A program made the position numbers and the translations under genes. Source: Candidatus Hydrogenedentota bacterium (GTDB lineage: Bacteria > Hydrogenedentota > Hydrogenedentia > Hydrogenedentales > JAGMZX01). Taken from it: DNA of 64,000 nt. The stretch is taken from positions 82,729 to 146,728 of the forward strand of contig JAKQEQ010000042.1 in assembly GCA_029556545.1 (NCBI GenBank), in the 5' to 3' direction. Under the pieces are notes generated by a model. The model worked only from the letters and a program-made list of their open reading frames with translations, ran no database searches and was not told where the DNA came from. Positions 2,022-31,685 of this stretch are shown piece by piece; position 1 is the first letter of the stretch; every line of letters starts with the position of its first letter.

Positions 2022-5018
2022 CTATGTCAGACTCCTAAACGTTTTCTCCGCCAACTGCAGAACGCCTTGAAGGTCACCGCGGCCCGTGCGGGCGATTTCC
2101 TCGCGGAGCACCTGCATGGCGTCGTGCGCCTTGTGTATGGCCTGCTCCCGTTGCGTCGTATCAAGCAGGAGTTTCGCGCGATAGATCTGCGCCCGCGCCA
2201 AATCGCCGCGCAGTGCTGTCCGGCCCGCCGCCACCCGCCGCTCAAAAAGCGCAATGCTCCGGTCGTAATACCCGAGCGCCTCCCGATCCTCGCCCAGAAT
2301 ATCCAGTGCCAACCCGTTATTCATGTACGCCGCGGCGAGGTCCGGCTCGAATGCCGTCAGGCCCATCGCCACCATCCGTTCGAAAGCTTCCAATTCGCCC
2401 GGCGCGTTGCCCCTGGTCATGTAAGCATTGGCGAGGTCCGGCTCGAGTTCCGTCCGGCCCTCGGAAACCAGCCGCTCAAGAAGCGCAATGCACCGGTCGT
2501 AAACCCCGAGCGCATCCAGGTACTCTCCCTGGGACCGCAGCGCACCGCCCTTGGTCATGTACAGCCTGGCGAGGTCGGGCTCGAGTTCCGTCCGGCCCGC
2601 CGCCACCAGCCGCTCGCGGATCGCGATGCACCGGTCGTAATACCCGAGCGCCTCACGGCCCTGTCCCAGGGACCGCAGCGCCACGGCCTTGTTCATGTAC
2701 GCCGTGGCGAGGTACGGCTCGAGTTCCGTGTGGCCCGCCGCCACCAGCCGCTCGTGGATTGCGATGCACCGGTCGTAAAGCCCGAGCGCCTCACGGCCCT
2801 CGCCCAAGGACCATAGCGCCGCGGCCTTGTTCAGGTACGCCGCAGCGAGGTCCGGCTCGAGTTCCGTCCGGCCCGCCGCCACCAGCCACTCGAAAAGCGC
2901 GATGCACGGGTCGTAAAGCCCGAGCGCCTCACGGCCCTGTCCCAGGGACCTAAGCGCATTGCCCTTGTTCATGTACGCCGCAGCGAGGTCCGGCTCGAGT
3001 TCCGTCCGGCCCGCCGCAACCAGCCGCTCGTGGATTGCGATGCACCGGTCGTAAAGCCCGAGCGCCTCCCGGCCCTCGCCCAGGGTCTGAAGCGCATTGC
3101 CCTTGTTGATGTACGCCGAGGCAAGGTTCGGCTCGAGTTCCGTCCGGCCCGCCGCCACCAGCCGCTCGAAAAGCGCGATGCACCGGTCGTAAAGCCCGAG
3201 CGCCTCCCGGCCTTCGCCCAGGGAGTTTGCCGCCAAGCCCTTGTTCATGTACGCCGTGGCGAGGTACGGCTCGAGTTCCGTCCGGCCCGCCGAAACCAGC
3301 CGCTCATACAACGCGATGCACCGGTCGTAATACCCGAGCGCCTCACGGCCCTCGCCCTGGGTCTGAAGTGCATTGCCCTTGTTCATGTTCGCGAGGGCGA
3401 GGTGGGGCTCGAGTTGCGTCCGGCCCTCGGAAACTAGCCGGTCGCGGATCGCGATGCACCGGTCGTAATACCCGAGTGCCTCCCGGTCCTGACCCACAGA
3501 CCGCAGCACACTGCCTTTGTTCATGTATGCGTCTGCGAGAAGCGGCTCGAGATCCCACCGGACCGCAGAAACCAGCCGCTCGTACAACGCGATGCACCGG
3601 CCGTAACATGCCAGCGCCGCGCCCGAGTCGCCAAGGTTCTCGTGCAGCAACGCCTTGCTCGTACATAGCGTGGCAAAGTCTGTTTCGAGATACTGGCGAC
3701 CCTCTCCTATCAGACGCTCATAAATTCGCGCCGCTTCCTCGTATGCCGCTAGGTCCGAGACCAACTGCGCCGCGCGCGGCCCCGTCCGGTCGAGCATCAG
3801 GCGCTCCGCCTCGCGCGGGTCCCGGCCCGCCGCACGCAACGCACGCTCCAGCCATATCCGAGGGTCGTCCCACTGGATGCACCGTATCGTCCAGCGGTCC
3901 GATTCGGTCCAGCCCTCTTTCGGCGGGCGCGGGAACCCAGGGAGGTCCCGGGGATACGGCCGTCCCACGCAGGCCGCGTATATATCCCGCAACGCGTCCG
4001 CGGCATCGAGCAAGGTCGCCCACCGCTCCCCCGGCTCCTGCCGGAAGCAACTCCGCAGCACTTCGACCACCGCAGGCGGCATCGGCGGCAGACTGGGCCG
4101 GGCCGGGCCCGTCTCCAGGTAGCGGTCGAGGAAGGCGTTCGCTTCCGCGCCCCTCTCCCAGTTCACGGTGCCATGGAACAGGGTCAACACGCTCAGCCCC
4201 CAACTCCACACATCCGTCCCGCGGTCCAAGGGTGCTCCCCGCCGCTGTTCCGGCGAGCAGAATGCCGGCGTCAGCCCGCCGAAACTCACCAGCGGTTCAC
4301 GAGAGCCGCCGGCCGTTGCCCCATCCGCCGTCTCGCCCGCCTGCGCCCGAGCACGCGCCAGCCCGAAATCCGTCACCAGCGCGCGCCCGTCCGGCGTCAT
4401 CAGGAAATTGCCCGGCTTCACGTCACGGTGCACCAGACCCCAGGTATGCGCCGCGTGCAACCCCCAAGCCGTCTGGATGGACACGTCGAGCATCTGCTCC
4501 AGCGCCATCAGCCTGCCCTCGTCTATCCACTGTTGCAGCGACCCGCCCTCGACGAAGTCCGCAAAGATGCCGATGGTGTCGCCGAACGCCCGGAAAAACC
4601 GGCACTTGACCACGTGCGGGTGTTCCGGAAAGGCAATCCAGCTGTGCAGTTCCCTGAAGAAGGCCCGATGATGTTCCGTGTCCCGGACAAGGTCGGGCCG
4701 GACCCGTTTCACGGCAAACCGGTCCTCCGTCTTCGTATTCTTCACGCAGTAGACCGCGCCCATGCCCCCGCGCCCGAGGATGCCGTCCACCGTGAATATC
4801 TCGTCCAATTGGACCCCCGGCGCCCAACCTTCGGCCCCGTCCTCACGCGGCCCCGTGTCCCGGCCCCTGCCGAACGCAGCCGAGTCGATGGGCCGGACCC
4901 GTTCCCGCGACTCGACCGGGGACACAATCTGCGTGTCGGGCAGCGCTGAGACCGTTGTTTGCCCCCTGTCCTTTGCGCTATCTTCAGATGGCGGTTGTGA
5001 AGAGTCTTCAGACGCCAT
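2022..5018 (-). CDS. Ser/Thr protein kinase with C-terminal TPR-like repeat array (paralogue 1)
   Basis: A 998-residue kinase starting at ATG 5018 behind AAGGAG. The Hanks-type kinase domain (about 75-345) has a glycine loop LGRGGMGAVY (81-90), catalytic Lys104, HRDVKPGN (from 197), DFG (217-219) and SPEQ in place of APE. The C-terminal half holds ten 46-residue helical repeats of the type GRTELEP-LATAYMNKG-ALxSLGEGREALGxYDRCIA, plus a diverged terminal unit, then a capping helix. No membrane segment is visible, so it is probably cytosolic. It phosphorylates Ser/Thr on unknown targets, and the FHA protein encoded upstream is an obvious candidate reader. Close paralogues lie at 16145 and 29481 with six and four repeats. 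Kinase activity is well supported by intact motifs; the role is unknown. Confidence 0.93.
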   Translation of the reverse strand: MASEDSSQPPSEDSAKDRGQTTVSALPDTQIVSPVESRERVRPIDSAAFGRGRDTGPREDGAEGWAPGVQLDEIFTVDGILGRGGMGAVYCVKNTKTEDRFAVKRVRPDLVRDTEHHRAFFRELHSWIAFPEHPHVVKCRFFRAFGDTIGIFADFVEGGSLQQWIDEGRLMALEQMLDVSIQTAWGLHAAHTWGLVHRDVKPGNFLMTPDGRALVTDFGLARARAQAGETADGATAGGSREPLVSFGGLTPAFCSPEQRRGAPLDRGTDVWSWGLSVLTLFHGTVNWERGAEANAFLDRYLETGPARPSLPPMPPAVVEVLRSCFRQEPGERWATLLDAADALRDIYAACVGRPYPRDLPGFPRPPKEGWTESDRWTIRCIQWDDPRIWLERALRAAGRDPREAERLMLDRTGPRAAQLVSDLAAYEEAARIYERLIGEGRQYLETDFATLCTSKALLHENLGDSGAALACYGRCIALYERLVSAVRWDLEPLLADAYMNKGSVLRSVGQDREALGYYDRCIAIRDRLVSEGRTQLEPHLALANMNKGNALQTQGEGREALGYYDRCIALYERLVSAGRTELEPYLATAYMNKGLAANSLGEGREALGLYDRCIALFERLVAAGRTELEPNLASAYINKGNALQTLGEGREALGLYDRCIAIHERLVAAGRTELEPDLAAAYMNKGNALRSLGQGREALGLYDPCIALFEWLVAAGRTELEPDLAAAYLNKAAALWSLGEGREALGLYDRCIAIHERLVAAGHTELEPYLATAYMNKAVALRSLGQGREALGYYDRCIAIRERLVAAGRTELEPDLARLYMTKGGALRSQGEYLDALGVYDRCIALLERLVSEGRTELEPDLANAYMTRGNAPGELEAFERMVAMGLTAFEPDLAAAYMNNGLALDILGEDREALGYYDRSIALFERRVAAGRTALRGDLARAQIYRAKLLLDTTQREQAIHKAHDAMQVLREEIARTGRGDLQGVLQLAEKTFRSLT
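2150..3570 (-). repeat. Tandem 138-bp repeats encoding 46-residue TPR-like units (about 10 copies)
   Basis: Within the kinase gene the DNA repeats every 138 bp, with near-identical blocks such as GGCTCGAGTTCCGTCCGGCC. The repeats are in frame and copy number differs between paralogues. Confidence 0.9.
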
Positions 5019-7211: not shown

Positions 7212-9914
7212 TTAGACGCGGTGCGAACGGTGTGCTGCCCGCTCCTTCGCGGTGGCGGGGCGCAGCGCAGCTTTCCCATTCACTTCCTCTCTGCGGAATT
7301 TCCCCTCGTCCTGTAACAAATCAAATACGAAGAGCACTTCGTCCACGGCTATGGTGGTGCGCAATGTCGTCTCCACGGCGTCCTGGACCTTGCTTGTCGT
7401 CACGAATTCAAATGCGTCGAGATATTCGACCACCCACTTCCGAATCGCTTCCATGCGCTGATGAACAGTCTCTGGTTCGAGGCTTTCCGCGAATTTGCGC
7501 ACGCCGGTGGCCATGCCCGGCAGGGCCGGTCTGCGCACGCGCCACGTGTCGCCGCTTGGCTCGACCAGGATGAGCATCTCCGTCGGCAGGGCGACCGCCT
7601 TGACCTCCTTCACCCAGCCTTGGGGGGCAATGGCCACCCAGTACGCGTCTGGGATTTCTCCCTGGGGCGCTGTGTCCTTGAGCCAGGCCCTGACCGTGTT
7701 CTGGGCGATGCTCAAGTGCTTTGCGTTGCATGGCATGAATACGGGGCCAAGATTCTCCATAAAATCCACGGGCGTCAAGACGGCCAATACGACGATGACG
7801 GGACGCCCCCATAGTCCCGACAGCCGGAACACCCGCACATAGTTCACCGCATTCAGGTCATTCAGCCAGTTCTCGGGGGGATGCCATCTCACGGCCTGCG
7901 CCAGGCCATTGGGCAGCCGCCATTCGCTCTCCATGTGTTGTTGCAGTGCGGCCGAGACCTGACTCCGGTCAAGTTCGACGAGACTGCGAACACGCGGATG
8001 CAGAAGGGAGATGTCCCGGCGTGCGGACGTAAGCCGAGGTACACGCGGACGATCCTGGGCTGCTCGACCAATGTTCACGGCCATTGCCGATTCGATGTCG
8101 TTCAGCATGCCCCGGTATTGCACGAGCCTGGTCCGCGTTGCCACATTCATGTTCTGAATGCCGCGATCTTCCAGCGATTTCAGCCACTCCGTGTCTTTTT
8201 CCGTATTCGACCGCGTCGTGTCCGGGCAATACATGGTCTGCTCATGCCACAGGCCGCACGTTTCACGTGAACACAGTTGCCGCCCGCAGTCGGCACAGAC
8301 ACCATGCCACGGGTTTTCAGCCGTGATGAAGGCGCCGCAGTGGCCGCATGCCTGCGGTTGACCTGTCGGCGACGCCTCCGCCAGGCAAGCATCACAAAGA
8401 CCACGAAACCAACCGTCATCGCGGGGGCAGATGGAACGCTTCTCATTGCGATGCCGTCCCTGAGGATCCGCACACTCCTTGCTCAGCCCATGCCGAATCG
8501 GGTGTCCATTGTTGCAGCAGTGTTCCCAACAGAGTCCCTGTCCAGCCCCCCGGCAATGGGAACATACCATGTTCCCGCACTCTGCCACTCTACACGGCGC
8601 AAGCTGCACCCCATCGGCCACTGGATGCCCCGCGGAACAGGTGATCGGCGTATCTGCCGCACAGTGAACGTCACACAACTGTTGGGCGTAACCGCGGTCG
8701 TGCGGGCAAATGACCCGTCCACAAAACACGCCAGCGTCCAATCCGCCACAAAAGGCGATAGGAGCGCTATCAACGCGATGGCCGTTGCCGCAGAGGTAGG
8801 CATCCCCCGGATCGCCATACAGGACATATGCCAAGCCGAGCAATGTCCCGGCATCAAGCGGGTTCCCCTCGCTACCGCGCAACGCCCGACGCGCGATCCG
8901 AAGGGACTCCCCAACGGTTCGTCCCTCACCCAAGGCCTTGTAGAAGTCCACCATGGCAAGCGGGCAGCGTTGAAGCGGCAACTCCACCGTGGTACAGATG
9001 TAATGGCGAATGCCTGCCCTTAATGCGGCATCAGCCATGCCATACAATCGCGTTGTTTCCGGCCATTCGGCTTCCCAGCCGCACGTTACGCCCGACTCGC
9101 AACTGGTGGAGAAAAGAAGTAATGGCGGAAGCGCACCTGCATCAAAGGATCGCAGCAGGTCCTCGGCGGTGAACACGCTTTCAGGGTCGCCACTGATTAC
9201 AAAGCCGCTCTTCTCCGGATTTTCCTCGTCATACTTGTAGTGAGAGCAAATGTTCACCGCCTCAAAAACACGCATGGCGGACTGTATATCGGAAATGGCG
9301 AGCGTTTGGGAAACCACACCGGAATCCAAATTAAAACTTCCAGCCAAATCGACGGTGGTCCAGGAAGTCGCAAGATCATTCACCGGCCCTTCAGGAAGCT
9401 GCATACCGGGATCGATCATTGTATGCACGCGATAGGGCAGACTGGCACCAAGTCTTTGGCCTTTGGCCGGCCCTGGCCGTTTCGGATTGAGCAACTCCTT
9501 TCCCGTCGCATATTCGAATGCCAGGAAGTCATTCCACAAATAGATTCCGTCAAACGGCACCCCGTTCAGAAGGGGGTCTACCCTGAAGAGAATCTGTCGT
9601 ATCGAGCGGTCGTTGCGCAGTCTGTCCAGAAGCTCCGCCGGCATCAGATGCGTGCGCAATCGTTCGCTGATGGGTTGAAGGACAGTCTGAATCCACGCTG
9701 TGAGGTCCGGCAGCGGTTCCCAATGCTGCGCTGAGACAATTCCTTCCCCTAGACACTCGATAAACGTCCTGGAATCGTCTAACAGTCCCTCATAGCCGCA
9801 CACGCGCGGTATAAACAAAGCCGGTAGTGTCTTTCCTTGGTCTGTCCGGATTTCCGCGAGCAATTCCACGCGATCGTCGGGGAAGACGCGATATTGAAGA
9901 ACAAGCGTCGCCAT
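7212..9914 (-). CDS. CHAT-domain cysteine protease with tandem zinc-binding modules
   Basis: A 900-residue protein whose ATG overlaps the stop of the upstream anti-sigma-like gene by one base (TGATG at 9912-9916). Residues about 100-370 look like a CHAT (caspase-like, clan CD) peptidase. A candidate catalytic His225 sits in NICSHYKYDE and Cys272 in FSTSCESG, followed by the typical RLYGMADAALRAGIRHYICTT and FYKALGEGRTVGESLRIARRAL. Residues 375-565 carry three Cys/His modules of the pattern CxxGHxV...C...C...LC..HC plus a fourth Cys-rich unit, so they probably bind zinc. The remaining C-terminal region of about 330 residues is unrecognised. There is no signal peptide. Its context with a sigma factor suggests regulated proteolysis. 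The CHAT call is good but substrate and trigger are unknown. Confidence 0.85.
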   Translation of the reverse strand: MATLVLQYRVFPDDRVELLAEIRTDQGKTLPALFIPRVCGYEGLLDDSRTFIECLGEGIVSAQHWEPLPDLTAWIQTVLQPISERLRTHLMPAELLDRLRNDRSIRQILFRVDPLLNGVPFDGIYLWNDFLAFEYATGKELLNPKRPGPAKGQRLGASLPYRVHTMIDPGMQLPEGPVNDLATSWTTVDLAGSFNLDSGVVSQTLAISDIQSAMRVFEAVNICSHYKYDEENPEKSGFVISGDPESVFTAEDLLRSFDAGALPPLLLFSTSCESGVTCGWEAEWPETTRLYGMADAALRAGIRHYICTTVELPLQRCPLAMVDFYKALGEGRTVGESLRIARRALRGSEGNPLDAGTLLGLAYVLYGDPGDAYLCGNGHRVDSAPIAFCGGLDAGVFCGRVICPHDRGYAQQLCDVHCAADTPITCSAGHPVADGVQLAPCRVAECGNMVCSHCRGAGQGLCWEHCCNNGHPIRHGLSKECADPQGRHRNEKRSICPRDDGWFRGLCDACLAEASPTGQPQACGHCGAFITAENPWHGVCADCGRQLCSRETCGLWHEQTMYCPDTTRSNTEKDTEWLKSLEDRGIQNMNVATRTRLVQYRGMLNDIESAMAVNIGRAAQDRPRVPRLTSARRDISLLHPRVRSLVELDRSQVSAALQQHMESEWRLPNGLAQAVRWHPPENWLNDLNAVNYVRVFRLSGLWGRPVIVVLAVLTPVDFMENLGPVFMPCNAKHLSIAQNTVRAWLKDTAPQGEIPDAYWVAIAPQGWVKEVKAVALPTEMLILVEPSGDTWRVRRPALPGMATGVRKFAESLEPETVHQRMEAIRKWVVEYLDAFEFVTTSKVQDAVETTLRTTIAVDEVLFVFDLLQDEGKFRREEVNGKAALRPATAKERAAHRSHRV

Positions 9915-12443: not shown

Positions 12444-13301
12444 TTACTCCGGCAATCCTTCCAGGCGCAAGGCAAAACGCATGATGTAGGCGTTGTAGCA
12501 GATGGCGAAGCCGACGGCGACAAGGAACAGCAACAGGGCAAACCAGGAGGACAGGGCCGCGCCGAGCAGGAGATACGCGAGCAGCGCGTCGGCGGCGCTG
12601 TAGATGACGAGGGTCGCCGCATTCGACCGGTTCGTGTCCTTGCGGACCATGGCGCGGATGAAGCCGATGGTGAAGACCGGCAGCAACAGCACGGCGATCA
12701 GCCAGGCGAAGAATCGCTTCGGAGCGTTGATTCGCGCGATTTCTTCCCGGACGCGGCCCGTGTTCAGAATGCCGGGCGCGGTCTCTTTGGTGTACCGCCG
12801 GTCGAGCAGGAGCGCGCCGGAGGCCACATCGAGTAGGCGTACTTCGAGATCCAAGGCCGCTTCGCCTCCAAAGGACTCGAACGCGCGCACCGTGCCGAAG
12901 AGTACGCCCTCGACGCCCATCGCATGTCCCGTCGCACGCGCCGCTTCCGGCTCGCCGACCCCGGTTTCGCGCAAGTCCAGGAAGGCCCGGGCCTTCTCAG
13001 TCAGCGTCCGGTCGCGCAGGTCCAGGATGCCCGACGACGAAACAGCGGACCGTAGTTGATTCGTCACGTACCCGGAGGAATCGCCCGCGAACGGCAGCAA
13101 GGCCACCGTGCCGAGGCCGTCGCGCGCGTCGCGCAGGTCCCGCAGCATGACCGGGACGGCTTCGTCCGCCACTTGGACGCGCAGCGGACTGATCTCCGGC
13201 TTCTTCGGACCGACGGCGTCCCACGCCTGCGACCCCAGATAGAACGCGAGCAGCACCGTCCCCGCCCGGCTCGCCAGGTTCCACAGCCCCCGTATCAACA
13301 T
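12444..13301 (-). CDS. Membrane protein with CsgG/LpoB-like domain
   Basis: A 285-residue protein from ATG 13301 behind GGAGGAATAGG, 46 bp after the Vps4-like gene, so it is the last gene of that operon. One N-terminal hydrophobic segment (about 10-28) is followed by a domain of about 150 residues with VALLPFAGDSSGYVTNQLR, then ILDLRDRTLTEKA and GVEGVLFGTVRAFES. This pattern resembles the CsgG/FlgO/LpoB fold. The C-terminus has three further hydrophobic helices (about 190-280). This would place the CsgG-like domain on one side of the inner membrane, tethered at both ends. It may be the membrane anchor or cargo sensor for the ESCRT-like proteins encoded upstream, which is inference. The fold call is moderate and the topology call is good. 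Confidence 0.72.
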   Translation of the reverse strand: MLIRGLWNLASRAGTVLLAFYLGSQAWDAVGPKKPEISPLRVQVADEAVPVMLRDLRDARDGLGTVALLPFAGDSSGYVTNQLRSAVSSSGILDLRDRTLTEKARAFLDLRETGVGEPEAARATGHAMGVEGVLFGTVRAFESFGGEAALDLEVRLLDVASGALLLDRRYTKETAPGILNTGRVREEIARINAPKRFFAWLIAVLLLPVFTIGFIRAMVRKDTNRSNAATLVIYSAADALLAYLLLGAALSSWFALLLFLVAVGFAICYNAYIMRFALRLEGLPE

Positions 13302-13347
13302 GGCCTATTCCTCCACGGGCGGAACGCCCATGCCACGCTTCTTGTGA

Positions 13348-14481
13348 TCAGTCGTCGCCATAATCGTCGCTCGAGGCGGCGTGGCCCGCGCGCCAGGCGT
13401 CAAACTCCGCCAGGTGTTCGGGCGTGACCGAAGGCCGCACCTTCCCCAGCGCCGCCTCGAAGTCCTCCTGCGTCACGTCTTCATCCTGGCCGCTGGCGAG
13501 TTGCCGATTCTTCGCCGAACGCTTGGCCCGGTCGCATAGCGACGCCATGTCCGCGCCGCTGAAGCGGTCCGTCCGCGCGGCGATGGCGGCATAATCCACG
13601 TCGTCCGCCACAGGGACGCCTTCCATGTTCAGGCGCACGATGGCCTCGCGCGCGGGCGCGTCCGGCGGCCCGACGTAGATGTGGTCGCCCAAACGGCCCG
13701 GCCGCAGCACCGCCGGGTCGAGCAGCCACGGCTTATTCGTCGCGGCCAGCACCAGCAGGCAGTTCTTCGTCTCGACGAGGCCGTCCGTCAGCGTCAGGAA
13801 CTGGGTCACCATGCCGATCTTCCGGTTGCCGCGCCGCGCGAGGATGGCGTCCACTTCATCGAGGAAGATGACCGCACGATCGTGTTTGCGGGCCTCGTCA
13901 AAGAGCCGCTGCATGTTCTTCTCGGTTTCCCCGACGTACTTGTCCTTGACCTGCGAGGCGTTCACGTTAAAGAAGGCCGCGTCCAGTTCGCCCGCGATGG
14001 CCTTGGCGATGTACGTCTTGCCGTTGCCCGGCGGACCGTACATGAGCACGCCGCCGCCCTTGCGCAGTCTGAACCGCTCATGAACCTCCGGGTGCAGGAA
14101 CGGCTCGATGACCTTCTCGCGCAACTCGACCTTCACGTCTTCAAGCCCCGCCACGTCGATCAGCTTCTCGCGCGGCCGCTCCTTGAGTTCCCACTGCGAT
14201 TGCGACACGTCCTCGTCGGGGCCGGCTTTTTCCTTCGCCCGTTGCAGGCCCTCCCGCGACTGCGCCCGCGCCTTCTCCTTCAGTTGCTCAGCGATATCGA
14301 GCAGTTCGTAGGCGTCCTCGACGTACTGCTCCGCCACCTTGCCCTCGCTCTGCTCCGCCAGCTTGAGCCCGAACTCGGCCGCCTTCGCCGTGTGGAAGAA
14401 CGCTTTGCCGAAATGCTTCTCGCACAATGCCGCCTCGGCGGCAGCCTCGTGCTCCCGCTTTTTGTCGGCATTGAAACTCAT
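13348..14481 (-). CDS. Vps4-like AAA ATPase with N-terminal MIT-like domain
   Basis: A 377-residue protein from ATG 14481 (GGAGGATGAGAA upstream), overlapping the stop of the preceding gene by 4 nt (ATGA). Residues 1-75 form three helices ending in LLDIAEQLKEKA, closely resembling a MIT domain. Residues 105-345 are a classical AAA module: VAGLEDVK, Walker A GPPGNGKT (149-156), pore loop KYVGE (181-185), Walker B VIFLDE (204-209), and sensor ATNKPW (247-252), where PW is typical of the Vps4/katanin clade. An RPGR arginine-finger region follows. The C-terminal SVTPEHLAEFDAW (351-363) resembles the Vps4 C-terminal helix. In eukaryotes and archaea such enzymes pull ESCRT-III subunits out of polymers. 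The adjacent genes encode ESCRT-III-like proteins. The AAA call is certain, and the MIT/Vps4 assignment is strong by motif. Confidence 0.85.
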   Translation of the reverse strand: MSFNADKKREHEAAAEAALCEKHFGKAFFHTAKAAEFGLKLAEQSEGKVAEQYVEDAYELLDIAEQLKEKARAQSREGLQRAKEKAGPDEDVSQSQWELKERPREKLIDVAGLEDVKVELREKVIEPFLHPEVHERFRLRKGGGVLMYGPPGNGKTYIAKAIAGELDAAFFNVNASQVKDKYVGETEKNMQRLFDEARKHDRAVIFLDEVDAILARRGNRKIGMVTQFLTLTDGLVETKNCLLVLAATNKPWLLDPAVLRPGRLGDHIYVGPPDAPAREAIVRLNMEGVPVADDVDYAAIAARTDRFSGADMASLCDRAKRSAKNRQLASGQDEDVTQEDFEAALGKVRPSVTPEHLAEFDAWRAGHAASSDDYGDD

Positions 14482-15125
14482 TTCTCATCCTCCATCAGTC
14501 TCCGAAGCCGCGCGCGGCCCTCGCCAATCTTCTCCGCCAGACCGCCCTCCGCCTCGGTAGCCTTGCGCGCACCCGTCCGCTCGCCGATGTCCGCCGCCAC
14601 CTCGTCCTCCAACAGCTTCTCCATTTCGTCCAGCGACGGCACCACGTCGGTCATCTTCGTCTCGACCCCGGCCATCTCCTTGCCGTAAGCGCGCTCCCAA
14701 ATCTTGTCGAGGTCCACCTGCTCACCCAGCTTGTCCTCGACCGCGCCCAGCACGTCTTCGACCCGCTCGGGGTCGATGGCGATGACGGCATCGAGCGATT
14801 GCAGCGCGTTCGTGAAGTCCTGGTCCGTCTGCGACAACTCCATCTTCGCGATCAGTTGCTCGAAGACCCAACGTTTCATGTCCAGCTTCGTCATCAGAAT
14901 TTCACAGGCGCGGCAGGATTGCAGGCTCCGCTGGCTTGCCCCCTTCTGGCCGTCCTTGAGGTATCGGCGCGCCTCGCTCCACGCGGCGTCCCGCTCCGCC
15001 TTGAGCTTCTGGATGCGCTCCTTCACCGTGTCAACCGCGCCTTCCGCCTGGCGCTTGGCCCGGCGCTGCTTTACCCGAAGGTCCTTCTCCCGCTGCGCCT
15101 TCGACTTGAACAGGTCCTCGAACAT
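14478..15125 (-). CDS. Snf7/ESCRT-III-like protein with C-terminal MIM1-like motif
   Basis: A 215-residue protein. ATG 15125 is chosen because GAGGAGG sits 8 nt upstream and the product then begins MFEDLFKSK, an amphipathic start like ESCRT-III helix 0. A basic helix (8-55) turns at KDGQKGAS (57-64) into a second long helix (65-115), the ESCRT-III hairpin layout. An acidic C-terminal half follows, with DEMEKLLEDE (166-175). The last residues, GEGRARLRRLMEDEK, contain RLxxL as in the MIM1 motif that binds MIT domains. The stop overlaps the Vps4-like gene start. It should polymerise on membranes and be recycled by the ATPase. Family assignment is by pattern and gene order, not by a search. A generic coiled coil is the alternative. 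Confidence 0.7.
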   Translation of the reverse strand: MFEDLFKSKAQREKDLRVKQRRAKRQAEGAVDTVKERIQKLKAERDAAWSEARRYLKDGQKGASQRSLQSCRACEILMTKLDMKRWVFEQLIAKMELSQTDQDFTNALQSLDAVIAIDPERVEDVLGAVEDKLGEQVDLDKIWERAYGKEMAGVETKMTDVVPSLDEMEKLLEDEVAADIGERTGARKATEAEGGLAEKIGEGRARLRRLMEDEK

Positions 15126-15203
15126 GGGCTGTGCCTCCTCTTTGCTCGCTTGCCGCCACGCGTGTTCCCGCTGTCGGGTCATCCTGACCACTGCGCCAAC
15201 GCC

Positions 15204-15812
15204 CTACTCCTCTTCCGTCTCCAACTGCTTCAGCCACTTCGCCGTATCCTCGGAGAGCGCCTCCTTGGCGGGCGGCTCCACGACGTCCATCGCCTCGGGA
15301 CGAACCGTCTCCGTCACGGGCTTGCGCTCGCGCTGGTACTGCACGCGTTTCAGGTCGCGCGCCGCCTTGTCCTCGTCTTTCAGGTCGGCAAGGGCGCCAT
15401 CGAGATCGACCGCGATGTCGTCCAGGACTTCCTGACCCACCCCCCGCTTCCGGGCCGCTTCGAGTTCATCGAGCTTCGCCAGCGCCGTATTTACGTTGCT
15501 GATCCGGCTGACGAGGATGTCCTGGCGGCCCTTCTGGCCGTCAAGTTCTTCTCGCGCGAGTTCGATCTGCTCGATGATGACGCGCTTGCCCTCGCCCTTG
15601 GTTTGATCGAATTCCTGCTTGAGTTTGAGCGCGCGCTGTTCGAGGACATGGATGTCCGTCTTCAGATTGTCCAGTTCGTCGTTCAGCGTCCGGCGGAGTC
15701 CCAACAGCGCGCGGCGCTGCGCCTCGAGCCGCGCCTGCTCCGACTTGCGCAAGCCCAGAAACTCCGCCAACTTGGCCAATACGGCCCTGACCAGGTCCGG
15801 TAACGTGTTCAT
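15204..15812 (-). CDS. Second ESCRT-III-like coiled-coil protein
   Basis: A 202-residue, almost wholly helical, charged protein from ATG 15812 with GGAGGGG 9 nt upstream. It is the first gene of the operon, 78 bp before the MIM1-bearing protein. An N-terminal amphipathic helix (LPDLVRAVLAKLAEFLGL) precedes a long helix (32-70), a turn DQTKGEGK (69-76), and a second long helix (77-120). An acidic helix (128-155), a Pro-rich linker and a terminal helix DTAKWLKQLETEEE complete it. This order of basic hairpin, acidic regulatory helix and short C-terminal helix is that of ESCRT-III subunits, and PspA/Vipp1 are known bacterial members. It lacks the PspA signature, so it is not simply PspA. Assignment is mainly from architecture and context. 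Confidence 0.65.
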   Translation of the reverse strand: MNTLPDLVRAVLAKLAEFLGLRKSEQARLEAQRRALLGLRRTLNDELDNLKTDIHVLEQRALKLKQEFDQTKGEGKRVIIEQIELAREELDGQKGRQDILVSRISNVNTALAKLDELEAARKRGVGQEVLDDIAVDLDGALADLKDEDKAARDLKRVQYQRERKPVTETVRPEAMDVVEPPAKEALSEDTAKWLKQLETEEE

Positions 15813-15871
15813 CAGACTACCCCTCCAATTAGGACACCCTTATGAGATAGGACTTTGGTCGCTCGAACGCT

Positions 15872-15900
15872 AATATACGCCACAACCGATGTCTTCACAA
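15872..15900 (-). promoter_or_regulatory. Promoter of the ESCRT-like operon
   Basis: On the minus strand TTGTGA (15900-15895), 17 nt, TATATT (15877-15872). It predicts a leader of about 50 nt before ATG 15812. The rest of the gap 15813-16144 shows no gene or further signal. Confidence 0.5.
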
Positions 15901-16144: not shown

Positions 16145-18634
16145 TTACGACAATTCCCCGAACGTTTTCTCTGCCCACTTGAGCACGCCCTGCAAGTCGC
16201 TGCGGCCGGTACGGGCGATTTCTCCGCGCAGCACCAGCATCGCGCGGCGCGCCTCCTGGATGGCTTGCTCCCGCTGAGGCGTCCCGAGCAAGAGCTTCGC
16301 GCGATAGACTTGCGCCCAAGCCAAATCGCCGCGGAGTTCCGTCCGGCCCGCCGCCACCAGCCGCTCGTGGATCGCGATGCATCGCTCGTAATGCCCGAGT
16401 GCCTCCCGGCTCTCGCCCAGGGTATCCAGCGCCACGCCTTTGCTCATGTACGCCGTGGCGAGGTTCGGCTCGAGTTCTGTCCGGCCCGCCGCCACCAGCC
16501 GCTCGCGTATTGCGATGCACCGGTCGTAAACCCCGAGTGCCTCCCGGCCCTCGCCCAGGGTATCCAGCGCCGCGGCCTTGTTCAGGTACGCCGTGGCGAG
16601 GCCCGGCTCGAGTTCCGTCCGGCCCGCAGAAACCAGCCGTTCGCGGAGCCCGATGCACCGGTCGTGGTACGCGAGCGCCTCCCGCCCCTCGCCCTGGGTA
16701 TTTAGCGCCACGCCCTTGTTCAGGTACGCCTGGGCGAGGTCCGGCTCGAGTTCCGTGCGGCCCGCCAAAACCAGCCGTTCGCGGAGCCCGATGCACCGGT
16801 CGTGGTACGCGAGCGCCTCCCGCCCCTCGCCTAGGGTGTCCAGCGCCACGGCCTTGTTCAGGTACGCCGTGGCGAGGTCCGGCTCGAGTTCCGTCCGGCC
16901 CGCCGAAACCAGTCGCTCGTACAACGCGATGCACCGGTCGTGGTACGCGAGCGCCTCCCGCCCCTGACCCAGGGAATCCAGCGCCACGCCCTTGTTCATG
17001 TACGCCGTGGCGAGGTCCGGTTCGAGTTCCGTCCGGCCCGCCGCCACCAGCCGCTCGTACAGCGCGATGCACCGGTCGTGGTACGCGAGCGCCTCCCGCC
17101 CCTGACCCAGGGAATCCAGCGCCACGCCCTTGCTCAGGTACGCCGTGGCGAGGTCCGGCTCGAGTTCCGTCCGGCCCGCAGAAACCAGCCGCTCGTGCAG
17201 CGCGATGCACCGGTCGTGGTACGCGAGCGCTGCGCCAGAATCGCTTAGGTTGTCGTGAAGAAACGCCTTGTTCAAACATAGGATGGCAAAGTCGTCTTCG
17301 AGATCCTGGCGACCCTCCCCTATCAGACGCTGATAAATCTGCGCCGCCTCCTCGTACGCCGCGAGGTCCGCGACCGACTGCGCCACACGCGGACCCGTCC
17401 GCTCGAGCATCAGCCGCTCCGCTTCGCGCGGGTCTCGACCCGCCGCCGTCAGCGCACAAACGAGAAACGTCCGCGGGTCCTCCCACTGCACGCCGACTGT
17501 CGTCCAGCGGTCCGTCTCCGCCCAGCCCTCCTTCGGCGGACGCGGGAACCCAGGCAGGTCCCGGGGATACGGCTGCCCCGCGCAGGCCGCGTATACATCC
17601 CGCAAGGCATCCGCCGCATCGAGCAGTGTACCCCACCGTTCCCCCGGCTCCTGCCGGAAGCAGCGGCGCAGCACCTCGGCCACCGCCGGCGGCATCACAG
17701 GCAGGCCCGGCCGCGCCGGGCCCGTTACCAGATACCGGTCCAGAAGGGCATTCGCTTCCATGCCCCACTCCCAGGTCACGGCGCCGTGGAACAGCGTCAA
17801 CACGCTCAGACCCCAGCTCCACACGTCCGTACCATGGTCCAGCGCCACCCCCCGACGCTGTTCCGGCGAACAGAACGCCGGCGTCAGACCGCCGAAGCTC
17901 AGCAGCGGCTTGTGAGAAGCATCTGTCGGTGCCCCGTCCGGCGTCTCGCCCGCCTGCGCCCGCGCCCGAGCCAAACCAAAATCCGTCACCAGCGCGCGGC
18001 CGTCCGGAGTCATCAGGAAGTTCCCCGGCTTCACGTCCCGATGCACCAAGCCCCACACGTGCGCTGCATGCAGCCCCCACGCCGTCTGGATGGACACGTC
18101 GAGCATCTGCTCGAGCGTCGTCAGCCGGTCCTCGTCTATCCACTGCTGTAACGAACTGCCCCCCACCAGATCCGCGAAGATGCCAATGGTGTCTCCGAAC
18201 GCCCGGAAGAACCGGCACTTGACCACGTGCGGGTGTTCCGGCAAGGCGATCCAGCTCTGCAGTTCCCTGAAAAAGGCCCGATGATGTTTCGTGTCCCGGA
18301 CAAGGTCTGGCCGGACCCGTTTCACGGCAAATCGGTCGCCCGTCTTCGTGTTCTTCACGCAGTAGACCGCGCCCATGCCCCCGCGCCCGAGGATGCCGTC
18401 CACCGTGAATATTTCGTCCAGCGCCGTCCCCGGCGCCCAGCCCTCGGCGCCGTCCTCCTGCTGCATGGTGTCCCGGTCCTTGCTCCACGCAGCCGAGTCG
18501 ATAGGCTTGACCCGTTCCCGCGACTCCGCTACCGCAGACGCCACCCGCGTCCCGGACGGCTGGGCTGCCGGTTCCGCTGGTGTTTCCTTCGGTCCTTTGC
18601 CGAACAACCGCCTGAAAATGCCCCCGGACGCCAT
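16145..18634 (-). CDS. Ser/Thr protein kinase with C-terminal TPR-like repeat array (paralogue 2)
   Basis: An 829-residue paralogue of the kinase at 2022-5018. The start ATG 18634 gives the N-terminus MASGGIFRRLFGKGPKE, shared with the copy at 29481 and basic/amphipathic, so it may touch the membrane. The kinase domain is intact: LGRGGMGAVY, Lys105, HRDVKPGN (198-), DFG (218-220), SPEQ. Six 46-residue repeats plus a terminal half-unit follow, against ten in the first copy, and the length difference is close to four repeats. Homology to the 29481 copy continues about 50 bp upstream of the start. It lies upstream of the ESCRT-like operon on the same strand, separated by a promoter and 332 bp. 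Substrate unknown. Confidence 0.93.
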   Translation of the reverse strand: MASGGIFRRLFGKGPKETPAEPAAQPSGTRVASAVAESRERVKPIDSAAWSKDRDTMQQEDGAEGWAPGTALDEIFTVDGILGRGGMGAVYCVKNTKTGDRFAVKRVRPDLVRDTKHHRAFFRELQSWIALPEHPHVVKCRFFRAFGDTIGIFADLVGGSSLQQWIDEDRLTTLEQMLDVSIQTAWGLHAAHVWGLVHRDVKPGNFLMTPDGRALVTDFGLARARAQAGETPDGAPTDASHKPLLSFGGLTPAFCSPEQRRGVALDHGTDVWSWGLSVLTLFHGAVTWEWGMEANALLDRYLVTGPARPGLPVMPPAVAEVLRRCFRQEPGERWGTLLDAADALRDVYAACAGQPYPRDLPGFPRPPKEGWAETDRWTTVGVQWEDPRTFLVCALTAAGRDPREAERLMLERTGPRVAQSVADLAAYEEAAQIYQRLIGEGRQDLEDDFAILCLNKAFLHDNLSDSGAALAYHDRCIALHERLVSAGRTELEPDLATAYLSKGVALDSLGQGREALAYHDRCIALYERLVAAGRTELEPDLATAYMNKGVALDSLGQGREALAYHDRCIALYERLVSAGRTELEPDLATAYLNKAVALDTLGEGREALAYHDRCIGLRERLVLAGRTELEPDLAQAYLNKGVALNTQGEGREALAYHDRCIGLRERLVSAGRTELEPGLATAYLNKAAALDTLGEGREALGVYDRCIAIRERLVAAGRTELEPNLATAYMSKGVALDTLGESREALGHYERCIAIHERLVAAGRTELRGDLAWAQVYRAKLLLGTPQREQAIQEARRAMLVLRGEIARTGRSDLQGVLKWAEKTFGELS
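16350..17182 (-). repeat. Tandem 138-bp repeats encoding 46-residue TPR-like units (about 6 copies)
   Basis: Same repeat unit as at 2150-3570, in frame inside the kinase gene, six full copies plus a diverged end copy. Confidence 0.9.
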
Positions 18635-18718: not shown

Positions 18719-21703
18719 TCACGGCGCGTAGCGCGGCTTGATGGAAAAAGTGGGCTTCACGTGATACCAGTGCGGCGCATTCAGGTAGTAGCTCTTGACT
18801 ACCGTGAACGATGAGCCATCCCACGAGAGGACATCGATGCCGCGCTTGTGCTTGTACCCCTGTGTGACCGTGCCCGTGCCGAAGTGGTCCACGTAGTGCG
18901 TGCTCACATAGACGAGACCGTCCGGTCCCACTGCGACGGACGACGCGCCGAATTGCGGGTAGAAAGTCACCAACGACGTATCGGCCAAGTCGAAAGCGTA
19001 CAGGCCGCCCCCGCCGTAGTAGCTGTTGCCGTAGCCGCCCGCGAAGGCGGTCAGACCGTCTTCGGAAAACGCCACCTGGCCCATATAGTCGGCAAGCAGA
19101 TCAAATACGGCGAGCGTTTCCTGCGTCGTAAGACTTCCGATGTCCACCGCGCCCGCGGCATACGAGTACGAGGTGACAACCCCATAGGCGCCCGAGGGAT
19201 CGATGGCCGACGTGCCCCATAACGACCGAAGCAAGGAGAGTTCCGCCTCATTGATCGCCACGTTCGTGGTCAGGTCAACTGTTGTGAAACCCGTCAGGTT
19301 ATGACATTGCACCAGGATATCGCCCGGAAGCAGACGTGCAAACCGCCCGTCCGCCATGACCGGGAAGTCGTCCGCGACCACCGCGCGCGATGCGAAGTCG
19401 ATGACCCGCCTTGCCGCGTAGCAGTACTGATCATTGCCGCGGAACACGGGGTACGCGGGAGCACTCGCGAACGGCAACGCGCCGACAACCGTGTGATTGC
19501 CCGCGTCATAGACATTGCCCGAAGTGTCCACGACGAAATCCCCCGCGTGCGTGGAAGCCACAATCTGCACACCGGGCAGGAGACCGAGGATTTCCCCCGC
19601 GTCCAGGTCCAAGACAATCGTTTCACTGCCCGTGGGGCCATAATTGTAAAGCAGTGCATGACCAGACGTTGAGAACTCCGGATCGTAGGTAGCCTCGAGC
19701 ACAAGGCCGTTGGCGGGGTCTTTGTCTCCGTCAATCGGCGCTACGGTGAACGTGTTCACGCCTTCCGACAGCGTCACGTCGTGACGCAGCCCGCCGTCCG
19801 CATCGAGCGCCACCGTCTCACCATTGATGGACACGGCGGTTGCCTCCGCGAAATAGCCCATGATCGGATAGTTGGGCAGATTCGTCGTCACGCGCCGCAT
19901 GCCTTCCCCTTCGCCCTCGCCCTCGCCGGGCTCTCCCCACGCCGGTGGTTCGGGTTGCCAGGCAAAATCCGTGACGAGCACCTCGACCGGCTGCCCGTCG
20001 GTTGGCGCGGTTCCGTTGAACAACCAGAGATTCAGCCGGAAGTTCTCATTGCCGGGGACGGGTATGTCCGCACCTTCGAAAACCTTATATCCCGCCAGTT
20101 GTTCCGCCGGCGGCACTTCCCCCGCGCCGTACTTGCCGTAATAGCTCCTGAACTCCGCGCGATCCGGCGTCCAGACAAGGTAGCTGGTCAACTCGGAGTC
20201 TTCATCCGTCAGGTCAGCCCGGAAGCGGTGACAATGATCGCCGCAACCCGGACACGCGCTACAAGGCTGCACCACGTATTGCGCGTTCGTATCCAAGGCG
20301 GCGTTGCCCCAGCGCGCGAATTCGATGTCCAACTCACGGTAGTACTCCTGGTATGCCGCCGTTTCCCACGTGAACATGCCAAACACCACATTCGGGTCCA
20401 GCATATCCACGCGGCTCCCCGTTACGACCCGATACGCGCCGTAACCATAGGACGCATTCAAGATGACTTCGGTGCAGGCCAGGTGGCCGTCGCGCTCGCT
20501 TATCGTGAGGTGCAGGCCCTTCTCGTCGGCCCACACGGCATCCTCCGCATCCGAGAAATAGTTGCCCCCAGGCCCCGCCGGGAAATCCCGGCGTTTCACC
20601 GACCAGTCGTAACCAAAGGCGGATATCCGGCGCACTTCCGGGCTACGGTCAATGATCAGCGTGTCGATGGCTTCGGGGATCACGGGCAGTTCGTGGCACG
20701 GGTCGCAGCTCGTTGCCGCCGTGCCCGCCGGGATCAGGTACACGGTGATCCCGGTCGCATACTGGTCGTAGCCGCCCGTCACAATCGGACAGGACCAAGT
20801 CCCGTCAACGCCGATCCCCGTCAACGGCGCCGCGTAATACGGTTTCGTCCACCAGACCTCCTCGACCTCGATGTAAACCTCTATTCCGAGGCTCACGGGA
20901 TCATTCGGCGGGATACACGTCACGTGCCCGGCAAGATTGCCGTACGTCCCATAGGGAGGCACGAAATCAATGACGATCTCGGGCTCACAGGGCTGACCTT
21001 CACCCTCACCCTCACCCTCGCCTTCACCTTCACCCTCGCCTTCACCTTCACCTTCACCTTCACCTTCACCCTCACCCTCACCCTCGCCCTCACCCTCACC
21101 TTCACCTTCACCCTCACCTTCACCTTCACCTTCACCTTCACCTTCGCCCTCGCCTTCACCTTCACCTTCACCATGCAAGACAGGACAGAACTGGTCTTCC
21201 GTGCCCTGATCCGGGCAATAGGCGTAGCCGCCTGTGTTATAGAACTGAATGAGACGCAGCAACTCCGTCAGGGCTATGGTCCAATCCGGTCCGGCAGGAT
21301 AATAGTCACCGTCGTGAGGGCAACAACCCACGTTGACGCCCCAACCGGGCACGTAGCCGTCTTCCGTGCTCTCCGGCTCATCCGCACAATGGAACCCGCC
21401 TGAGTTATAGAACTGAACAACACGCAGCAACTCGGTCAGGACAATCCTGCCGTCTTGGTCCTGGTCGGCGGTATGCCACCGATCAACGCAAGAATGACCC
21501 TCTCCCTCTGCGTTGCGGTAGTCCTCGCCACCAGAAATGGGTGTGAAGAGTGTAGTCGAAGAATCGTGGGACTCGAACACGCTGCCGCCTGTCGCGGCTG
21601 CGTAACCCCTTTGTGCCGGGAAAGCCAGGATCACACACATGCTGATTCCCAGCAGGCCGGCCCACTTTGTAGCAGTGTTCAGGAGCGCAATTTGCCGAAT
21701 CAT
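18719..21703 (-). CDS. Large exported protein: paired EF-hand-like module, Gly-Glu linker, GH16-like domain
   Basis: A 994-residue protein from ATG 21703 (AAGGA 8 nt upstream). A 50-residue longer frame exists but would bury the signal peptide (about 1-35). Residues 75-176 are a paired dockerin-like module with ADQDQDGRIVLTELLRVVQF and WTIALTELLRLIQFYN. A 59-residue Gly-Glu linker follows (178-236). A beta domain leads to a GH16-like region (about 355-590) with the intact catalytic signature ELDIE (457-461), including GYGAYRV and VVFGMFTWE. The C-terminal third is beta-rich and may form a propeller. It would act on beta-glucan-like polysaccharide outside the inner membrane if active. The GH16 call is by motif only. 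Confidence 0.82.
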   Translation of the reverse strand: MIRQIALLNTATKWAGLLGISMCVILAFPAQRGYAAATGGSVFESHDSSTTLFTPISGGEDYRNAEGEGHSCVDRWHTADQDQDGRIVLTELLRVVQFYNSGGFHCADEPESTEDGYVPGWGVNVGCCPHDGDYYPAGPDWTIALTELLRLIQFYNTGGYAYCPDQGTEDQFCPVLHGEGEGEGEGEGEGEGEGEGEGEGEGEGEGEGEGEGEGEGEGEGEGEGEGEGEGEGEGEGQPCEPEIVIDFVPPYGTYGNLAGHVTCIPPNDPVSLGIEVYIEVEEVWWTKPYYAAPLTGIGVDGTWSCPIVTGGYDQYATGITVYLIPAGTAATSCDPCHELPVIPEAIDTLIIDRSPEVRRISAFGYDWSVKRRDFPAGPGGNYFSDAEDAVWADEKGLHLTISERDGHLACTEVILNASYGYGAYRVVTGSRVDMLDPNVVFGMFTWETAAYQEYYRELDIEFARWGNAALDTNAQYVVQPCSACPGCGDHCHRFRADLTDEDSELTSYLVWTPDRAEFRSYYGKYGAGEVPPAEQLAGYKVFEGADIPVPGNENFRLNLWLFNGTAPTDGQPVEVLVTDFAWQPEPPAWGEPGEGEGEGEGMRRVTTNLPNYPIMGYFAEATAVSINGETVALDADGGLRHDVTLSEGVNTFTVAPIDGDKDPANGLVLEATYDPEFSTSGHALLYNYGPTGSETIVLDLDAGEILGLLPGVQIVASTHAGDFVVDTSGNVYDAGNHTVVGALPFASAPAYPVFRGNDQYCYAARRVIDFASRAVVADDFPVMADGRFARLLPGDILVQCHNLTGFTTVDLTTNVAINEAELSLLRSLWGTSAIDPSGAYGVVTSYSYAAGAVDIGSLTTQETLAVFDLLADYMGQVAFSEDGLTAFAGGYGNSYYGGGGLYAFDLADTSLVTFYPQFGASSVAVGPDGLVYVSTHYVDHFGTGTVTQGYKHKRGIDVLSWDGSSFTVVKSYYLNAPHWYHVKPTFSIKPRYAP
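20996..21172 (-). repeat. 6-bp microsatellite encoding a (Gly-Glu)n tract
   Basis: About 177 bp of GGTGAA/GGTGAG/GGCGAG codons in frame, encoding Gly followed by 29 Glu-Gly pairs. Slippage would change tract length in steps of two residues without a frameshift. Confidence 0.95.
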
Positions 21704-21940
21704 CTTTGTATTCCTTCTCCCCATCCGTGGGTGTCTCATGGTGTTACGGGTGTCAGGTCTTGATTTCATAGTCTTGTCATGCCTTTTCTTGTGCCGGTCA
21801 GCGGCGGTCTCGACACGTTGTCCCTTGGCGCCGCAGGCCACGCTTGCCTTCATCTCCTCTATACGCGGGGAACGTCGATGTAATTCGCCTCGACCGTTTC
21901 ACCTCGCCATACGGAGTCTCTTCGCGCTTGACGGGCATCC

Positions 21941-29480: not shown

Positions 29481-31685
29481 ATGGCGTCCGGGGGCATTTT
29501 CAGACGGTTGTTCGGTAAAGGACCGAAGGAAACACCAGCAAGACCGGCAGCCCAGCCGTCTAGGACGCGGGTGGTGTCTGCGGCAGCGAAATCGCGGGAA
29601 CGGGTCAAGCCCATCGAGTCGGCTGCGTTCGCCAAGGGCGGGACCGGGCCACGAGAGGACGGCGCCGAAGGTTGGGCGCCGGGGATGCCACTGGACGAGG
29701 TATTCACGGTGGACGGCATCCTCGGGCGCGGGGGCATGGGTGCGGTCTACTGCGTGAAGAATGCGAAGACGGAGGACCGGTTTGCCGTGAAACGGGTCCG
29801 GCCCGACCTTGTCCGGGACACGGAACATCATCGGGCCTTCTTCAAGGAACTGCAGAGCTGGATTGCCTTTCCGGAACACCCGCACGTGGTCAAGTGCCGG
29901 TTCTTCCGGGCATTCGGGGACACCATCGGCATCTTTGCGGACTTCGTCGAGGGCGGGTCGCTGCAACAGTGGATAGACGAGGGCAGGCTGACGACGCTCG
30001 AGCAGATGCTCGACGTGTCCATCCAGACGGCGTGGGGGCTGCACGCGGCGCATGCGTGGAGCCTGACGCACCGGGACGTAAAGCCGGGCAATTTCCTGAT
30101 GACGCGGGACGGGCGCGCACTGGTGACGGATTTCGGGCTGGCGCGGGCGCGGGCGCAAGCGGGCGAGTCGGCGGATGGGGCAACGTCAGGCGCCTCACAT
30201 GAACCGCTGGTGAGCTTCGGCGGGCTGACGCCGGCCTTCTGTTCGCCGGAGCAGCGGCGAGGTGCACCCTTGGACCACCGGACGGACGTGTGGAGTTGGG
30301 GTGTCACCCTGTTAACGCTGTTCAATGGTGCCGTGACCTGGGAGTCAGGCGCGCAAGCAAACGCTGTCCTGGACCGGTATCTGGAGGCGGGTCCAGCGCG
30401 GCCGGGTTTGCCGCCGATGCCCCCCGCCGTGGCCGAAGTATTGCGCGGGTGTTTCCGGCAAGAGCCGGGGGAACGGTGGGGAACCCTTTTGGAAGCCGCG
30501 GACGCCTTGCGGGACGTGTATGCGGACTGTGTGGGGCAGGTGTATACCCGCGACCTTCCGGGGTTCCCGCGCCCGCCGAAAGAGGGCTGGACCGAATCGG
30601 ACCGGTGGACGACAACGGGCGTGCAGTGGGCCGACCCGCGGACTTGGATCGAGCGGGCGCTGCGCGCGGCGGGCCGGAACCCGCGGGAAGCGCACAGCCT
30701 AATGCTGGAGCGGACCGGGCCGCGCGTGGCGCAGTCAGTAGCGGACCTGGCGGCGTACGAGGAGGCGGCGCGCCTATACGAGGGGCTGATGGCGGCGGGC
30801 CACACAGAGATCGAAGCGGACTACGCTGTACTGTGTCAGAACAAGGCGTTTCTTCATGAAAACCTTGGCGACTCAGGCGCAGCGCTGGCGTGTAAAGACC
30901 GGTGCATCGCGATCCGCGAGTGGCTGGTGGCGGCGGGCCGGACGGAACTCGAGCCGGACCTCGCCAAGGCGTACCTGAACAAGGGCGTGGCGCTGTGGTC
31001 CCTGGGCGCGGGCCGGGAGGCGCTCGGGGTTTACGACCGGTGCATCGCCTTGTACGAGCGGCTGGTGGCGGCGGGCCGGACGGAACTCGAGCCGGACCTC
31101 GCCACGGCGTACCTGAACAAGGCCGTGGCGCTTAGGTCCCTGGGCGCGGGCCGGGAGGCGCTCGGGCTTTACGACCGGTGCATCGCGCTGTACGAGCGGC
31201 TGGTGGCGGCGGGCCGGACGGAACTTGAGCCGGACCTCGCAAGTGCTTACCTGAACAAGGGCGTGGCGCTGCAGTCCCTGGGACAGGGCCGGGAGGCGCT
31301 CGGGGTTTACGACCGGTGCATCGAAATCCGCGAGCGGCTGGTGGCGGCGGGCCGGACGGAACTTGAGCCGGAACTCGCCACGGCGTACCTGAACAAGGCC
31401 GTGGCGCTTAGGTCCCTGGGTCAAGGCCGGGAGGCGCTCGGGCTTTACGACCGGTGCATCGCGATCCGCGAGCGGCTGGTGGCGGCGGGCCGCACGGAAC
31501 TGTGCGGCGATTTGGCGTGGGTACAGGTCTATCGTGCGCAACTCCTGCTCGATACGCCGCAACGCAAGCAGGCCATCCACGAAGCGCGTGGCGCCATGCA
31601 GGTGCTCCGCGAGGAAATCGCCCGCACGGGCCGAGGCGACCTGCAAGGCGTCCTCCAGTGGGCGGAGAAGACATTCGCGGGCTGA
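29481..31685 (+). CDS. Ser/Thr protein kinase with C-terminal TPR-like repeat array (paralogue 3)
   Basis: A 734-residue paralogue of the kinases at 2022 and 16145, here on the plus strand. It has the same MASGGIFRRLFGKGPKE start and an intact kinase domain: LGRGGMGAVY, Lys104, HRDVKPGN (197-), DFG (217-219), SPEQ. Four 46-residue repeats plus the terminal unit follow, so this copy is about two repeats shorter than paralogue 2. The C-terminal cap (KQAIHEARGAMQVLREEIARTGRGDLQGVL) is shared by all three. About 50 bp upstream of the ATG is also conserved with paralogue 2, including GCGGAGGGT before the start. Targets unknown. Confidence 0.93.
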   Translation: MASGGIFRRLFGKGPKETPARPAAQPSRTRVVSAAAKSRERVKPIESAAFAKGGTGPREDGAEGWAPGMPLDEVFTVDGILGRGGMGAVYCVKNAKTEDRFAVKRVRPDLVRDTEHHRAFFKELQSWIAFPEHPHVVKCRFFRAFGDTIGIFADFVEGGSLQQWIDEGRLTTLEQMLDVSIQTAWGLHAAHAWSLTHRDVKPGNFLMTRDGRALVTDFGLARARAQAGESADGATSGASHEPLVSFGGLTPAFCSPEQRRGAPLDHRTDVWSWGVTLLTLFNGAVTWESGAQANAVLDRYLEAGPARPGLPPMPPAVAEVLRGCFRQEPGERWGTLLEAADALRDVYADCVGQVYTRDLPGFPRPPKEGWTESDRWTTTGVQWADPRTWIERALRAAGRNPREAHSLMLERTGPRVAQSVADLAAYEEAARLYEGLMAAGHTEIEADYAVLCQNKAFLHENLGDSGAALACKDRCIAIREWLVAAGRTELEPDLAKAYLNKGVALWSLGAGREALGVYDRCIALYERLVAAGRTELEPDLATAYLNKAVALRSLGAGREALGLYDRCIALYERLVAAGRTELEPDLASAYLNKGVALQSLGQGREALGVYDRCIEIRERLVAAGRTELEPELATAYLNKAVALRSLGQGREALGLYDRCIAIRERLVAAGRTELCGDLAWVQVYRAQLLLDTPQRKQAIHEARGAMQVLREEIARTGRGDLQGVLQWAEKTFAG
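30925..31482 (+). repeat. Tandem 138-bp repeats encoding 46-residue TPR-like units (about 4 copies)
   Basis: Same unit as in the other two kinase genes, four full copies in frame. Confidence 0.9.

Follow-up and report, generated by a model that had tools for sequence, protein, structure and literature searches.

PspA and Vipp1 have been recognised as ESCRT-III proteins, and whether a bacterial ATPase disassembles ESCRT-III polymers has remained an open question (PMC8281802). Bacterial Vps4-like ATPases have been described, but they are paired with a TPR/6TM protein that replaces Snf7 (Manfredi et al. 2024, PMC11237479), and the same PSP survey notes that certain bacteria encode Snf7 homologs close to other AAA+ proteins (PMC11237479). 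Paired Vps4 and ESCRT-III were reported in another 2024 survey to be absent from bacteria and limited to archaea and eukaryotes. Here we analyzed a four-gene operon in a 64,000-nucleotide stretch of DNA from a Candidatus Hydrogenedentota bacterium (the window, to whose coordinates positions refer unless a locus is named), the genes of which are called P1, P2, ATPase and membrane protein. Genomes are labelled G000 (that of the window), G001, G015, G036, G056 and so on, and loci or contigs are labelled L009, L014, L049 and so on. A sequence-only reading of this DNA had proposed a bacterial operon that couples an ESCRT-III protein to an ESCRT-type AAA ATPase. This idea proved stronger than that reading could know, because P2 matches Snf7/CdvB and not PspA and because the P2-ATPase pair is kept in six loci. 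We consider it likely that the operon encodes a bacterial ESCRT-type, ATP-driven membrane-remodelling module linked to stress or conflict proteases.

P2 (215 amino acids, 14478..15125, minus strand) is, by sequence and predicted fold, a genuine ESCRT-III protein of the Snf7/CdvB branch. When the window P2 was compared alone with the Pfam Snf7 model (PF03357), the match had an E-value of 0.025 and 14.7 bits, under the 27.3-bit cut-off. Its relatives gave E=8.9e-5, 2.2e-4, 4.2e-4 and 0.0097, the P2 of G036 scored 27.4 bits in a genome scan, just over the curated 27.3-bit cut-off, and Snf7 was the first or second Pfam match for all P2 members tested. A family profile composed of six members was run on 177,635 PDB sequences with E-values up to 10 and recovered eight sequences, each being or containing ESCRT-III, and nothing else: four Snf7 sequences, Asgard ESCRT-IIIB, GH13992p (which we take to be Drosophila Shrub), CHMP2A and one GH13992p-containing construct. 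The best of these was yeast Snf7 (E=3.7e-6), with Asgard ESCRT-IIIB at 5.9e-4 and GH13992p at 0.002. A model built from the divergent P2 proteins only returned the near P2 proteins as the first other matches in a set of 651 open reading frames.

The ESCRT-III hairpin that had been read into this protein is present in its AlphaFold model (mean predicted local distance difference test score of 77, about 90 in the hairpin), which is composed of a predicted hairpin of helices 9-57 and 61-96 and then short helices at residues 101-115, 125-136 and 139-147. A Foldseek search with this model, the check that the sequence-only reading had named, ranked ESCRT-III first: 22 of the 23 best matches were CdvB2, CdvB, Ist1, CHMP1B/IST1 or Snf7, with CdvB2 and CdvB filaments at the top and the structures of PspA and Vipp1 at lower ranks. 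The N-terminal helix 0 suggested for P2 is a weak candidate, the proposed helix being not unusually amphipathic. An assignment of P2 to PspA/IM30 (PF04012) was rejected, as no P2 member tested matched the PspA model and Snf7 was matched instead. Separate, true PspA genes are encoded elsewhere in four of the five ESCRT-bearing genomes tested, and the search of the fifth, the window's own genome G000, revealed no PspA_IM30 gene.

The second gene of the pair encodes a Vps4/CdvC-like single AAA ATPase (377 amino acids, 13348..14481, minus strand), the first 4 bp of which (ATGA) are also the last 4 bp of P2. It contains one classical AAA domain (125.8 bits), AAA_lid_3 and a marginal Vps4_C. Walker A (GPPGNGKT) and Walker B (FLDEVD) are intact, and the ATNKPW sensor noticed earlier was found. 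The Vps4-like C-terminal helix that had been proposed corresponds to a Pfam Vps4_C match barely over the cut-off (21.8 vs 21.3 bits). Vps4_C, which is not exclusive to Vps4, was clear in three relatives (30.8, 38.2 and 31.0 bits) and under the cut-off in the G015 ATPase. With the NCBIfam models, the window ATPase scored 213 bits for CDC48, 204 for the proteasome-activating nucleotidase, 189 for FtsH, 186 for CdvC and 110 for the anti-phage IteA; CdvC was the best model for the L009 ATPase, and a genuine FtsH protein scored only 132 bits with the CdvC model. On these scores the ATPase is a predicted single-ring classical AAA protein that lies between Cdc48 and CdvC and has a Vps4_C end. The 68 genomes of the window's phylum contain six full-length homologs scoring at least 506 bits, and all other matches are at or below 282 bits. 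In G001, the same operon also carries a second, degenerate AAA ATPase copy (L014:6030-6406, L043:48-632), in which neither the Walker B glutamate nor the arginine-finger motif is present.

The P2-ATPase pair is present in six loci of five genomes, that is, in 6/6 loci where the contig permits, so that the conservation of the neighbourhood in related genomes, a further check named in the sequence-only reading, was confirmed. Besides the window, the loci are G001:C225, continuing into C214 (the two ATPase fragments share part of their protein sequence), G001:C3, G036:C682, G015:C127 and a 4.8-kb contig (L009) in a Phycisphaeraceae metagenome-assembled genome (MAG). G056:C138, a contig cut at the ATPase, is outside this count. 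P1 is found in four of the six pair loci and the membrane protein in five. The module is patchy, occurring in about 5 of the 68 genomes of the window's phylum, and is therefore considered accessory. In a 386-genome sample, mostly of other bacteria, the P2 family was limited to the window's phylum; in 294 genomes sampled from the phylum to which the L009 MAG belongs, P2 was found only in that MAG itself; and no P2 relatives were found in the viral and plasmid collections searched. The G015 locus, from a different family, has the order ATPase, ESCRT-III, long coiled-coil protein and membrane protein. The coiled-coil protein (L049:6122-7726), which adjoins the ESCRT-III gene, is possibly SPFH-like, and SPFH-ESCRT links are known from archaea (PMC10936438). 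Directly upstream of the ESCRT-III gene of L009 lies an apparent diversity-generating retroelement (L009:166-1976), in which a small Avd-like protein and a reverse transcriptase are accompanied by an Asn-rich template-like stretch.

In the window, the pair belongs to a run of four minus-strand genes, as had been read from the sequence, with P1 (202 amino acids, 15204..15812) as the first gene and the conserved membrane protein (12444..13301) as the last. The promoter placed ahead of the operon was recovered as a sigma70-like pair, TTGTGA-17-TATATT (15872..15900, minus strand, read from 15900 to 15872), about 60 bp upstream of P1; it is a consensus match only, and two promoter-like pairs occur in the scanned region vs 0.4 expected in shuffles. 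All four genes are under purifying selection when compared with the sister species G001, with ratios of nonsynonymous to synonymous substitution rates of 0.10 for P2, 0.10 for the ATPase, 0.21 for P1 and 0.27 for the membrane protein.

P1 and P2 had both been taken for proteins with the ESCRT-III hairpin, an assignment that holds for P2, whereas P1 has only a predicted helical hairpin with mixed coiled-coil matches. The AlphaFold model of P1 comprises a hairpin (helices 4-70 and 74-123) and a third helix, after which a disordered linker leads to a C-terminal helix; no other stretch of the window P1 is as hydrophobic as its first helix. Foldseek returned mixed coiled coils, including BAR domains, with CdvB2 at rank 11. 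No relation between P1 and P2 was detectable by profile-profile comparison, and neither this comparison nor the PDB profile nor Foldseek gave a match that would establish P1 as ESCRT-III. Models of the near-P1 and far-P1 groups each recovered a member of the other group as the first other match. Judged from these comparisons P1 is a conserved component of the module, and it may be an ESCRT-III-like nucleator or co-polymer. The membrane protein begins with a hydrophobic segment and has several membrane spans towards its C-terminus. Its earlier description as CsgG/LpoB-like was not confirmed: one relative matched LpoB at E=0.035, under the cut-off, and the best E-value with the PDB profile was 0.18. 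The PHROGs matches were weak and of the coiled-coil type, and no PADLOC model matched P1, P2 or the membrane protein.

Every pair locus carries a protease or kinase neighbour. In the window it is a CHAT-protease-domain protein with a winged-helix-like C-terminus (7212..9914, minus strand; CHAT E=5.2e-12), two genes downstream of the membrane protein. The partners are a papain-like protease and a caspase in G001:C225/C214, a subtilase and a caspase in G001:C3, a subtilase in G015, a caspase in L009 and a Ser/Thr kinase in G036. The description of the operon as a self-contained machine is doubtful, because each locus with both P2 and the ATPase has such a neighbour. A C-terminal region with a winged-helix-like segment at its end may be common to the CHAT, subtilase, kinase and papain-like proteins. 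When five of these proteins were compared (window 7212-9914, L039:2566-5028, L049:10200-13076, L040:10042-12267 and L014:775-3420), leave-one-out models recovered 3/5 as the best other match, a weak result that serves as a lead only. The surroundings of the window operon also contain three Ser/Thr kinase paralogs, each with TPR repeats and all nearly identical at the N-terminus (2022-5018, 16145-18634 and 29481-31685), and a secreted-looking protein with a long (GE)n tract from a simple repeat (18719-21853). A gene for a phage-type tyrosine integrase (32526-33629) lies some 17 kb away.

We suggest that P2 would polymerise on the inner face of the cytoplasmic membrane, assisted by the membrane protein and by P1 through its hydrophobic first helix. 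The N-terminal helical region of the ATPase might recruit the ring to the helical tails of P2 and P1, and the ring would then extract subunits, so that the polymer is remodelled or dismantled. It is more speculative that the module serves a stress, conflict or cell-fate response, for example by repairing or cutting membranes once a protease has been activated, and does not act in division; this role is proposed because each pair locus includes a protease (CHAT, caspase, subtilase or papain) or a Ser/Thr kinase. A division role is unlikely, because FtsZ is encoded elsewhere in 5/5 genomes tested and the module is patchy. The bolder proposal, that some bacteria possess a complete ESCRT-III/Vps4 machine of the archaeal-eukaryotic kind that is wired to caspase, CHAT or subtilase and winged-helix proteins and acts in membrane repair or cell death, is made tentatively, and we rate its chances at somewhat below even.

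Several observations weigh against an ESCRT-type module. The Foldseek E-values of P2 were weak (best 0.026, none below 0.001), although the ranking was consistent. The CDC48 models outscored CdvC in most ATPase members, which are not clearly of the Vps4 clade, and neither P1 nor the membrane protein could be assigned to a family. The other points concern the ATPase N-terminus and the P2 tail. The MIT-like N-terminus noticed earlier (residues 1-75, 14257..14481, minus strand) is a helical region that gave mixed results: a 95-position profile of it matched VPS4B four times (E from 0.036 to 1.5) amid designed helical proteins and stray matches, but VPS4B was no longer matched when the profile was trimmed to 74 positions. 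Pfam MIT did not match the ATPase N-termini, including in a scan of five genomes, and a pairwise shuffle test vs MIT gave p=0.014 for the window ATPase and was not significant in 4/7 members. The region is a candidate MIT domain. The tests of the MIM1-like tail of P2 also gave mixed results. The protein ends in GRARLRRLMEDEK, and its residues 194-215 (14481..14546, minus strand) form a conserved tail with RLxxL that is a candidate for binding the ATPase; the last stretch is better conserved than the preceding linker (10/15 vs 4/15 invariant columns), but the motif by itself also occurs in 20% of shuffled tails (chance 0.20). Strict MIM1-like motifs are found in two distant P1 proteins, those of G001:C3 and G036 (chance 0.009 and 0.004). 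The sequence tests did not establish the docking of the MIT domain on the MIM1 tail that had been envisaged.

The main rival to an ESCRT-type module is an IetAS-like anti-phage or conflict system, in which the AAA ring would unfold or regulate the substrates of a neighbouring protease (subtilase, caspase or CHAT) and the helical proteins would act as adaptors or sensors and not as membrane polymers. As in IetAS, an AAA ATPase is present, and a subtilase matching the IetS model stands beside the module in two related loci. The ATPase matches IetA models distantly (108 bits), and neighbours such as caspase, papain and CHAT proteins are a usual feature of conflict systems. However, the ATPase is much nearer to CDC48/CdvC (186-213 bits) than to IteA (110 bits, cut-off 510), both the sequence and the predicted fold of its partner P2 are those of ESCRT-III, and the proteases differ among the loci whereas ESCRT-III and the ATPase are constant. 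The window operon itself showed no subtilase, and on this and the IteA score membership in IetAS was rejected. We regard an IetAS-like system as unlikely. An archaeal-type (Cdv-like) cell-division or vesicle-budding machine gained by horizontal transfer agrees with the CdvB2 and CdvB filaments as top fold matches of P2 and with CdvC as the best model of the L009 ATPase, but it is highly improbable in view of the FtsZ genes in all five genomes and the patchy, and hence accessory, nature of the module. Least probable is a generic coiled-coil and AAA chaperone operon with a superficial likeness to ESCRT-III, which is consistent with the weak single-sequence Snf7 match of the window P2, the P2 Foldseek E-values and the mixed coiled-coil matches of P1, but is contradicted by the independent Snf7 matches of other P2 members, one of them over the curated cut-off, and by a family profile that finds ESCRT-III alone in the PDB.

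A literature search covering open-licence papers other than preprints found no paper describing the P2-ATPase module. If the ESCRT-type module is correctly recognised, the presence in several bacterial families of a Snf7-type ESCRT-III protein fixed beside a Vps4-like AAA ring contradicts the absence from bacteria stated in the 2024 survey of paired Vps4 and ESCRT-III. The module makes bacterial ATPase-driven disassembly of ESCRT-III polymers directly testable and hints at a bacterial link between ESCRT and caspase-type responses.

Compared with known systems, P2 resembles PspA and Vipp1 in belonging to the ESCRT-III superfamily and differs from them in matching Snf7 instead of PspA models and in having a dedicated AAA partner of a class other than PspF. 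With the TPR/6TM-type bacterial Vps4 systems, the module shares a Vps4-like AAA ATPase and a membrane-protein neighbour; those systems are without Snf7, whereas the module keeps the Snf7-type P2. G037, G023 and G034 contain loci of the TPR/TM type, which are separate from the P2-ATPase module. In L086:4842-7647, L087:4762-7503 and L088:2603-5300, a Vps4-like AAA protein with a TPR-type N-terminus lies beside a TPR and membrane protein, which fits the published Snf7-less type. The archaeal CdvB/CdvC and Asgard ESCRT-III/Vps4 operons are similar in that a Snf7-type gene adjoins a single-AAA ATPase with a Vps4_C end, and CdvB filaments are among the best fold matches of P2. Unlike these operons, the module is bacterial, its MIT domain is only a candidate, it stands alongside proteases or kinases in genomes that encode FtsZ, and it has two extra conserved components, P1 and the membrane protein.

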